From positions 3,854 through 45,413 of the forward strand of contig PLSP01000059.1 of NCBI GenBank assembly GCA_003165195.1: 41,560 bases of DNA, read 5' to 3'. The stretch is from Candidatus Bathyarchaeota archaeon (lineage in GTDB: Archaea > Thermoproteota > Bathyarchaeia > Bathyarchaeales > Bathycorpusculaceae). The stretch's first letter is position 1, and each line of letters begins with the position of its first letter. Position numbers and translations under genes: made by a program. Positions 8,071-21,105 of this stretch are shown here, one piece after another. The notes under the pieces were generated by a model. The model did not search any database. It was not told the origin of the DNA and worked only from the letters and a program-made list of their open reading frames with translations.

Positions 8071-8303
8071 GGCTACTTCATCGAGCTAAAACTCCCTTTT
8101 TGTTACTTAGCTTCCTTCTAGCTAACTTGCCTCTTAGATAGCCTCTTTTCTACAATGGTCAAAACAGCCAACAGTCGATCCGCTCTGACCTCAAAAAAAA
8201 GCAAACGCTGCTTGGCTGCTTGCTGTAAATTGCAAGCTTTTAGAGCATCCTTTGGAAGTCGGGTTAATACATTCATCAACTTCGCAGTTCCAGAAAGACC
8301 TCG

Positions 8304-8349
8304 GAGGGATAGGGGTCTACTATTTGCACAAAATGTCTATAGCCAAAAA
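8304..8349 (-). repeat. Hairpin/poly-pyrimidine repeat R8 (TTTGG subtype)
   Basis: Reverse strand TTTTTGGCTATAGACATTTTGTGCAAATAGTAGACCCCTATCCCTC, nearly identical to R2. Confidence 0.85.
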
Positions 8350-8377
8350 GATCACCTAAACATTCGACTTGGTAGAA

Positions 8378-8415
8378 TAGGGGTCTAGTATTTACATCAA
8401 ACTTCAATAGGTAAA
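8378..8415 (-). repeat. Hairpin/poly-pyrimidine repeat R7
   Basis: Reverse strand TTTACCTATTGAAGTTTGATGTAAATACTAGACCCCTAT; with flanks, perfect 8-bp arms GTATTTAC/GTAAATAC. Confidence 0.85.
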
Positions 8416-8446
8416 TACCAAGCCCAAACCAACAAACCGGTGCGTT

Positions 8447-9700
8447 TTAGTGTACAAGCTTTAGCGCTATAAAGGCGGTTAAGAAGATGACTGCTGTTAT
8501 GAGGAAGGTTGGCAGATAACTAAAGCCGGTGGGTAGATAGGTGAAGCTGTTGGCGAGAAATGGTCCAAGGAAAGCGCCTATTGCTGCGCCTAAGCCTACC
8601 ATGCCGTCGAAGAGGCCTGCTTTGCCTTGGGGGATGATTTCCATTGAGAGCGAAAGCATCATTATGTAGTACATGGCGTAGGCGAAGCCGAGGCACAGTA
8701 AAAGACCGCATGTTAGAATGGTAGGCGCTATGGCTAAGGCTATTACGCCGATTAGGATAAAGACAAGGAGGCTGCGGAGAAGTATGAAGCGTGGCATCTG
8801 CTTTCTAATGTTTATTGAACTTGCTCGGCTGCGGATTAAGAAGTAACCTGTTGTTGCACCGATCGAGTTGAGGATGTATGCTAGATACACGTATTGTTCT
8901 TGTCCCCCAAACACGCTTTTGAGGTAGAGTGGAAGCGGCGTGAAAAACAAGCTTGTTGCAAGAGCGAATAAAACTATGGCAAAGGCAAATCCTCGGAAAC
9001 TGTCTTCTTTAAGGTTACCTTTCCAAGGTAACCCATCCATCAACCTAGTTGATGCTTGAACTCCACGACACGTTAAATCTACCTTTCGCTCAATTGTTAC
9101 CAGGCGTCTTTCAAAAATTATCAAGGGATCAGCAATCAAAAGTAACGCTGCCGCAAATGCCACTACGCTCAAGCCGCTGCAAATGTACAGTGTGTAGGTT
9201 GCTAAATTGGAAAAAGTAATTGCGGATGCAAATAAGACCATTCCGATGGCTAAGCCGATGATGAACCCGATTTCGGTAATTCCCTCGTAGAGACCAAAAG
9301 ACCGCTCCCAATCCTTGCGGCTGTAATGCTCTGTGATGAGAACATTTTTGGGCGATTCATGCGCTACATGAAGCATCTGCATCACGATGTAAAGAAACAC
9401 AAATACTATGAGGTTTTGGGCAAACGGTAAGGCCATCAAGAACAGGATAGCGGACATTGAAGCGAAAGAGAGAAGAATGAAAGCTTTGTAGTGGCGTGTT
9501 TTGTCGCAGAGGTATCCCCAGAGGAACGAGGCGGGGATCGAGCAAAAAATAGCTATGGAAGTCATTACGCCCAAGGCAAGCAGCGGCCCACCCAGCAAAC
9601 TGGTGTTCTTGAAGAGAACCACGTATAGCGGTATGAAAACTGTAAGCATGCCGAAAGCCATGTCATGAAAGAAGAAGCCTAACCGCCACATAGCCAACAA
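8447..9700 (-). CDS. MFS transporter
   Basis: 417 aa polytopic protein; PASFLWGYLCDKTRHYKAFI and GLFDGMVGLGAAIGAFLGPFLANSF MFS-like segments. Confidence 0.85.
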   Translation of the reverse strand: MLAMWRLGFFFHDMAFGMLTVFIPLYVVLFKNTSLLGGPLLALGVMTSIAIFCSIPASFLWGYLCDKTRHYKAFILLSFASMSAILFLMALPFAQNLIVFVFLYIVMQMLHVAHESPKNVLITEHYSRKDWERSFGLYEGITEIGFIIGLAIGMVLFASAITFSNLATYTLYICSGLSVVAFAAALLLIADPLIIFERRLVTIERKVDLTCRGVQASTRLMDGLPWKGNLKEDSFRGFAFAIVLFALATSLFFTPLPLYLKSVFGGQEQYVYLAYILNSIGATTGYFLIRSRASSINIRKQMPRFILLRSLLVFILIGVIALAIAPTILTCGLLLCLGFAYAMYYIMMLSLSMEIIPQGKAGLFDGMVGLGAAIGAFLGPFLANSFTYLPTGFSYLPTFLITAVIFLTAFIALKLVH

Positions 9701-16561: not shown

Positions 16562-16740
16562 TCGAAAATAACCTCTCTAGTAAGATATTAGACATGGTTT
16601 TTAATCCTTCCTAAAATAAAAAAGAGTGAAGCTGGCAACTAATGCGTACCTGAATCCAACTTTCAATCAGCTAATCTTTCTATAGTATCAACAGAACTTT
16701 TGCCCAAAACTCAATCACAAAGAATAGCAGATCCCAAAGG

Positions 16741-16778
16741 AGGAGGGTCTAGTATTTACAGCTAAAACACATGTAAAA
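16741..16778 (-). repeat. Hairpin/poly-pyrimidine repeat R9 (divergent loop)
   Basis: Reverse strand TTTTTACATGTGTTTTAGCTGTAAATACTAGACCCTCCT; same stem and tail, different loop. Confidence 0.7.
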
Positions 16779-16850
16779 ATGGAGACAAAAAACATCAAGC
16801 GCTTACGCATATGAAGCGATAGTTAAGAAAAATAAAAGTTTAAAAAAGGT

Positions 16851-20180: not shown

Positions 20181-20371
20181 ATAGAACTAGAAGTTATAAA
20201 TGTTACCGTTAAAAACAAAAAACAGATTGCGTCCCTTTAGAAAATCGTCGAGGCATTTTTTTGGAGAAACAAGCAGATCTTTCGTGTTGCTATTTGGTTT
20301 TGGGAAGACATTTGAGACTGCTTTGGGCCGTTTCTTTTTTTGCAAGCGAGGTTTGTTGTTTAGGATTGGTA

Positions 20372-20411
20372 TTTACCTATTGAAGTTTAATGTAAAGAGT
20401 AGACCCCTCCC
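20372..20411 (+). repeat. Hairpin/poly-pyrimidine repeat R1
   Basis: TTTACCTATTGAAGTTTAATGTAAAGAGTAGACCCCTCCC. Confidence 0.9.
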
Positions 20412-20452
20412 TTCCTATACCCTCTCTAAAGAGGCTGGTTTGGATTCATCTT

Positions 20453-20494
20453 TTTGGCTATAGAAATTTTGTGCAAATAGTAGACCCCTATCCC
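20453..20494 (+). repeat. Hairpin/poly-pyrimidine repeat R2 (TTTGG subtype)
   Basis: TTTGGCTATAGAAATTTTGTGCAAATAGTAGACCCCTATCCC. Confidence 0.9.
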
Positions 20495-20555
20495 TTCTAC
20501 CTTCCATCTAAGGTGTCAAGTTAGTAACATTTGGTTTCTGAACTGTCAGACCCAA

Positions 20556-20599
20556 TTTTACCTAAAGAAACTTGTAGTAAAATTGAGACCCCTATCCCC
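20556..20599 (+). repeat. Hairpin/poly-pyrimidine repeat R3
   Basis: TTTTACCTAAAGAAACTTGTAGTAAAATTGAGACCCCTATCCCC. Confidence 0.85.
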
Positions 20600-20645
20600 T
20601 CGGCATTCCGCTTGCGTGGGTTAAAGGGCGATGTTTTGAACGCCT

Positions 20646-20690
20646 TTTTACCTATTGAAGTTTGATGTAAATAGTAGGCCCCTCCCCCCT
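20646..20690 (+). repeat. Hairpin/poly-pyrimidine repeat R4
   Basis: TTTTACCTATTGAAGTTTGATGTAAATAGTAGGCCCCTCCCCCCT. Confidence 0.9.
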
Positions 20691-20727
20691 CCTACCTTCT
20701 TTGGGAGAACAGCAGGCTTCAACCATA

Positions 20728-20770
20728 TTTACCTATAGAACTTTGATGTAAATACTAGACCCTTGCCCTC
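20728..20770 (+). repeat. Hairpin/poly-pyrimidine repeat R5
   Basis: TTTACCTATAGAACTTTGATGTAAATACTAGACCCTTGCCCTC. Confidence 0.9.
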
Positions 20771-20791
20771 CTAAGACAGGTTGTTAGAACA

Positions 20792-20835
20792 TTTTACCTA
20801 CGAAAAGTTGATGTAAAATGTAGACCCCTCCTCCT
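20792..20835 (+). repeat. Hairpin/poly-pyrimidine repeat R6
   Basis: TTTTACCTACGAAAAGTTGATGTAAAATGTAGACCCCTCCTCCT. Confidence 0.9.
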
Positions 20836-20983
20836 CTCCTATCCGTTCTGAATCACGTAATCTAATGTTTGAATTATCCAACAAGGAGTGCGCTCAGGTT
20901 TGCAGGTTAAGGCAAGCAGCCAAGCGATCGAGAATCACATCTGGAAAACGTTTTTACTGAGCAACCGCAACACATGTATGCAA

Positions 20984-21105
20984 GCCGGGGTGGCGGAGTG
21001 GTTAACGCGCCAGCCTCGAGATCTAACAAAAGAGGGCTAAGCCAAAAGGCAAGTTAGCTGGTGGGCCTAGTGCTCGCAGGGGTTCGAATCCCTTCCCCGG
21101 CGCCA
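20984..21105 (+). tRNA. tRNA-Ser(CGA), intron-containing, with encoded CCA
   Basis: Acceptor GCCGGGG/CCCCGGC plus G and CCA; anticodon stem CCAGC/GCTGG with CTCGAG-intron(~35 nt, ~21021-21055)-A; class II variable arm GGGC-CTAGT-GCTC; T-arm AGGGG-TTCGAAT-CCCTT. Confidence 0.9.

Follow-up and report, generated by a model that had tools for sequence, protein, structure and literature searches.

The window, the whole stretch of 41,560 nucleotides of Candidatus Bathyarchaeota archaeon DNA that was analysed, contained an array of six in-register repeats of about 43 nt. They spanned 20371-20834 of the plus strand, all ran in one direction, and had start spacings of 81, 104, 90, 81 and 65. The array lay in the 804-nt gap that separates the L3 gene (PF00297; minus strand, 20180) from a tRNA gene (20984-21102), the non-coding gap in which the initial annotation had placed it. 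The six units and the three additional copies that this annotation had counted in the window were all recovered, the latter on the minus strand. The hairpins proper were delimited by a profile and stem search. The features are as follows.

20369-20421, plus strand: unit 1 (hairpin 20369-20399), GTATTTAC-15 nt-GTAAAGAG followed by TAGACCCCTCCCTTCC, of the first-of-array type.
20450-20502, plus strand: unit 2 (hairpin 20450-20480), CTTTTTGG-15 nt-GCAAATAG followed by TAGACCCCTATCCC; identical copies of this 31-nt hairpin are present at four other loci, where the spacers are different.
20554-20606, plus strand: unit 3 (hairpin 20554-20584), AATTTTAC-15 nt-GTAAAATT followed by GAGACCCCTATCCC, preceded by spacer module C.
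20644-20696, plus strand: unit 4 (hairpin 20644-20674), CTTTTTAC-15 nt-GTAAATAG followed by TAGGCCCCTCCC, preceded by spacer module A (GGTTAAAGGGCGATG, 14 copies).
20725-20777, plus strand: unit 5 (hairpin 20725-20755), ATATTTAC-15 nt-GTAAATAC followed by TAGACCCTTGCCC, preceded by module H.
20790-20842, plus strand: unit 6 (hairpin 20790-20820), CATTTTAC-15 nt-GTAAAATG followed by TAGACCCCTCC, preceded by module I.
20843-20983, plus strand: 3' flank, from the array to the tRNA gene, holding GGCAAGCAGCCAAGC, a motif common to the 3' flanks of other arrays.
8298-8418, minus strand: second array, of two units (hairpins 8388-8418 and 8320-8350), which begins some 30 nt beyond an MFS transporter gene located at 8447-9700 (minus strand).
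16730-16780, minus strand: solitary, more diverged unit (hairpin 16752-16780) between a radical-SAM gene and the gene for ribosomal protein S19.

The L3 protein shared 89% identity with its counterparts in Candidatus Bathyarchaeota bog_990, fen_992 and palsa_989, and 86-87% with those in some Ca. Bathycorpusculum. The tRNA gene, whose assignment to Ser is that of the initial annotation, is 119 nt long and bears an intron; it was found by Rfam (RF00005) and missed by ARAGORN at default settings.

The consensus of the repeat is NNN-TTTRC, a loop and GYAAA-NNN, followed by T or G, by AGACCCCT and by a tract of pyrimidines. The opposite strand reads AGGGGTCT[A/C] ahead of the stem (tag GTCT[A/C]). 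The loop was 15 nt long in 128 of 174 matches and often contained CTATNGAAA. The TTTAC/GTAAA stem first proposed was present as a core, but the real stem was longer, at 8 bp, because the three bases outside TTTRC also paired and varied with compensation. These outer triplets were of the types CTA/TAG, AAT/ATT, CAT/ATG, CTT/AAG and GTA/TAC. Among 115 copies, standard pairs made up 82.7% of the stem, compared with 68.1% after shuffling and 39-49% when the partners were slid. The covariation score of the same stems was 0.342, against 0.135 for shuffled and at most 0.075 for slid partners. Exceptions to the pairing were a T-T mismatch in a CTT/TAG type and an A-C in an ATA/TAC type.

The repeat was abundant in its own genome. 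The 12-mer TAGTAGACCCCT, with at most one mismatch allowed, gave 85 matches, compared with 11 for the reversed control. In about 417 kb of own-genome sequence, gathered around the pattern matches, the profile and stem search found 157 sites with scores of at least 20, and none in a Markov shuffle. With a covariance model (R1), at least 150 copies were matched genome-wide at E values up to 0.1 (lowest 7e-15); since no more than 150 candidates were scored, this count is a minimum. The copies were distributed over 51 loci with 1-7 units each. Of the pairs of adjacent units, 103 shared an orientation; the 2 opposed pairs lay at one locus. The arrays were intergenic. The orientations of the neighbouring genes, read along the array, were (-,-) 17, (-,+) 17, (+,-) 12 and (+,+) 11. 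This near-random distribution argued against any fixed promoter or terminator role, and such an element was rejected.

The genome is a fragmented MAG of 171 contigs with an estimated contamination of 5.5%. NN gaps lay within the arrays at L012, L023, L027, L032 and L042, where the assembler broke at the repeats, and the true arrays may be longer. Since several arrays hold short N gaps or sit at contig ends, they may also be collapsed.

The spacers, described at first as unrelated, were so within one array. Across the genome, on the other hand, they could be sorted into recurrent families (A to Q for those with at least three copies) whose lengths were characteristic, for instance 65-68, 73, 79, 81-82, 90-92 and 103-105. 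Units were mostly 65-105 bp (range 64-166). Module C was common to nine loci, including the window. The order of the modules was conserved in part and shuffled in part, as in a mosaic. A spacer family was tied to the hairpin that followed it (mutual information 1.91, compared with 1.09 when shuffled). Identical hairpins nevertheless adjoined unrelated spacers; CTTTTTGGCTATAGAAATTTTGTGCAAATAG, for example, was found at five loci with different spacers. We interpreted this as exchange of modules with breakpoints at the hairpin edge, which accounts best for identical hairpins beside unrelated spacers.

The 5' flanks of the arrays had almost nothing in common. Short modules, among them GCTTGCTTG, CAAGCAGCCAAGC and GCGTGTTTTAGCGTG, recurred in the 3' flanks. 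A module of about 200 nt with repeated GCGTGTTTTAGCGTG and CCGTGCCGTAGCGTGCC was seen at L009, L011, L013, L019, L192 and L197, at several of them directly downstream of the arrays. Among 163 flanking ORFs, no recurrent gene family was found as a carrier, apart from a few duplicated genes. A predicted protein of about 160 aa, with no Pfam match, has paralogues (75% identical) beside the arrays at L015 (5754-7058) and L029 (5151-5920), and the L015 gene has arrays on both sides. Duplication seems to have involved this gene along with the arrays.

The orthologous gaps in relatives were mostly much smaller. The gap between L3 and the tRNA gene was 804 nt in the window and 211, 352, 359 and 401 nt in four congeners. 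Other gaps were 586 compared with 124, 431 with 98-162, 754 with 213, 793 with 382, 757 with 404, and 789 with 481. The exception was L010, where the gap was not enlarged (760 compared with 805). Hence the arrays are, for the most part, net insertions in this genome. Neither common termini nor target-site duplications, of the kind that mark a MITE, were seen in the array flanks, where the divergence of the relatives made exact junctions unreadable.

The covariance-model search proposed by the initial annotation was productive in the genome itself, but not in its relatives. R1 gave no convincing match in 31 congeners (a single one reached E = 0.0063). A scan of the order's other 164 genomes, with stricter filters, found nothing at E <= 0.001. 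Searched as a strict pattern, the exact 20-mer core matched no further genome in a set of 85,488 species.

A de novo k-mer scan of the congeners revealed a different intergenic repeat, CATATTTGGATCCTAATAG-N7-TGCAGAAACCTATAGGGGGTAGGTC, in G006 and G022. The pattern had matches in 13 of 32 genomes, with at least 20 each in G012, G013, G018, G022, G024 and G006, and none in the genome of the window. The loci gathered for it were L226-L245 (G012), L141-L160 (G006) and L200-L215 (G022). In G006 it formed tandem pairs 60-64 bp apart. It resembled the present family in being intergenic and of high copy number in the same genus, with a G/C run beside a palindromic core. On the other hand, it showed little stem covariation, mostly solitary copies and no detectable sequence homology to the present family. 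Neither R1 run against the congeners nor R2 run against the own loci gave a convincing counterpart, and homology of the two is not supported. The G017 sample contained neither family. At 2 of 20 sampled G012 loci, the G012 repeat shared its gene gap with an array of the present genome, which is suggestive only. A further element around GTAAACCGC-N2-CRCCCACACAAAGAGA was present in G006 in seven copies in 400 kb (L141, L142, L144, L151, L154, L155 and L156).

The family was compared with known systems. Like a CRISPR, the arrays have partly palindromic repeats in one direction with spacers between them. Unlike those of a CRISPR, the repeats diverge (70-86% identical to the reference copy), the spacers recur throughout the genome, and there are about 50 dispersed loci. 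Phage, IMG/VR and plasmid searches gave only a spurious 28-bp plasmid match. CRISPR was therefore rejected, in agreement with the initial view that this is not an ordinary one. Membership in an Rfam family was not supported, as none of 4227 covariance models matched. Box C/D and H/ACA RNAs were rejected because the TGATG and ACA motifs were not conserved. A tRNA-linked element was also rejected: four arrays (in the window, C16, C45 and C96) precede a tRNA-like gene by about 140-240 nt, which is commoner than chance, yet these are a small share of the arrays.

Intergenic mosaic repeats are known chiefly from bacteria, in which they promote rearrangement and provide targets for insertion. The NIMEs of N. 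meningitidis, about 90 intergenic elements of 200-2700 bp, consist of 20-bp inverted repeats between RS families of 30-160 bp (PMC3898611, PMC3046118). The arrays here likewise have short inverted repeats that separate several spacer families. The inverted repeat dRS3, ATTCCC(N8)GGGAAT, has fixed 6-bp arms (PMC3898611), whereas the present arms, NNNTTTRC/GYAAANNN, vary with compensation, the 15-nt loop is conserved and the pyrimidine tail is long. A phage that encodes an IS110-type transposase uses dRS3 as a target (PMC3898611, PMC3046118); no IS110-type gene was found here.

REP elements carry GTAG or CGTC tags and are often arranged head-to-head, the GTAG type being associated with RAYT transposases (PMC2817692, PMC3733652). 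REP/BIME are species-specific, with complementary changes in the stem, and the CGTC families have loops of 4-5 (PMC2817692, PMC3733652). The present repeats share these stem changes and the species specificity, and are also high-copy extragenic hairpins with a one-sided unpaired tag. They differ in the tag (GTCT[A/C]), in the 15-nt loop, in their head-to-tail rather than head-to-head or alternating arrangement, and in that no RAYT was found. The family behaves like NIMEs and REP/BIMEs, but does not have their sequences, and their enzymes were not found. A survey of REP-like palindromes across archaea does not mention Bathyarchaeia (PMC12306157), and no paper on such repeats in Bathyarchaeia was found in the literature searched.

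The genome was searched for a mobilizing enzyme. The only Y1 transposase (PF01797) was a lone IS200-type gene with a 144-aa frame, and no hairpin of the family was found in the surrounding 3.4 kb. An IS200 derivative was therefore rejected. The IS110-type DEDD transposase (PF01548), which is present in 17 of 32 genus genomes, had no match in this genome, which is about 95% complete, and neither had reverse transcriptase (PF00078). An IS110 or retroelement origin was rejected accordingly. Tyrosine recombinases gave nine matches, of which only one was near a hairpin copy: at L016 (2142-3684), a 405-aa tyrosine recombinase gene (PF00589) begins about 270 nt from a solitary copy. This match, at C147:2421-2903, is a weak candidate for the enzyme.

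On balance, we favor the interpretation that the family represents lineage-specific, non-autonomous intergenic mosaic elements of archaea, mobile or recombinogenic. Of the three readings offered initially (an undescribed ncRNA, a protein-binding array and a mobile repeat family), the last fitted best. The arrays combine a short hairpin with a pool of 65-105-bp spacer modules at about 50 intergenic sites in one Bathyarchaeia species, a soil-type archaeon. The hairpin, with its conserved loop and pyrimidine tail, may be exposed in single-stranded or cruciform DNA. It may there be recognized by a recombinase or transposase acting in trans, or may itself be a preferred site of recombination. The arrays would then spread as non-autonomous elements and shuffle their modules, as proposed for bacterial REP/BIME and NIME. 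Against this view, homologous recombination alone could have spread them.

It is rather unlikely that the arrays are host-selected sites at which a protein with a nucleoid, segregation or replication role recognizes the inverted repeat or its cruciform. The fixed 15-nt spacing in most copies, the conserved loop and tail, and the dispersed, orientation-free arrays of up to seven sites are as such sites would be. A host function would, however, be expected in related species, and no congener has the family. The outer stem bases change freely if compensated, unlike those of a double-stranded DNA operator, and conservation extends to the spacer modules, which a set of binding sites would not require.

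Slightly less likely still is a structured ncRNA, in which transcribed arrays would act repeatedly, for example as a protein sponge, through the hairpin and an unpaired CCCCU tail. The compensatory stem changes, the conserved loop, the C-rich single-stranded tail and the several units in one direction are consistent with this reading. On the other hand, the median hairpin energy was only -3.2 kcal/mol, the fold of the whole array did not stand out from shuffles (z = -0.44), and RNAalifold predicted no pair in the consensus. Mispairs were G-U in 15 cases and A-C in 29, so there was no G-U excess. The random gene orientation, the absence of a shared 5' (promoter) region and the lack of an Rfam match also argued against an RNA, and this initial reading was left unsupported. 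All of these results except the Rfam comparison favored a role in the DNA form.

Least probable, and unlikely, is neutral debris, degenerate copies of one ancestral element spread by ectopic recombination and segmental duplication, with template switching keeping the hairpins perfect: a mutational route to perfect palindromes exists, the copies differ widely and some arrays were duplicated along with genes (L015/L029; two L034 arrays), but the loop and the TAGACCCCT tail, which are free of pairing constraint, are conserved across spacer families.

A further idea is more tentative. Each species of this genus may evolve a hairpin repeat system of its own, and an archaeal enzyme not yet described, active on DNA in single-stranded or cruciform form, may take the arrays as substrates and swap hairpin-bounded modules like tiny promoterless cassettes. 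The absence of the family from congeners, several of which carry another, points to a repeated origin of such systems within the archaea. In this genome, where no RAYT, IS110-type or reverse-transcriptase gene turned up, which enzyme spreads hairpin repeats becomes a testable question. The repeat arrays also account for some of the breaks in the assemblies of these MAGs and for some of their long gaps between genes. Palindromes of a separate type, GTACGAATATTCGTAC, were clustered in about 4 kb of the same genome (L182 12291-16284; G000:C96, about 52-56 kb).
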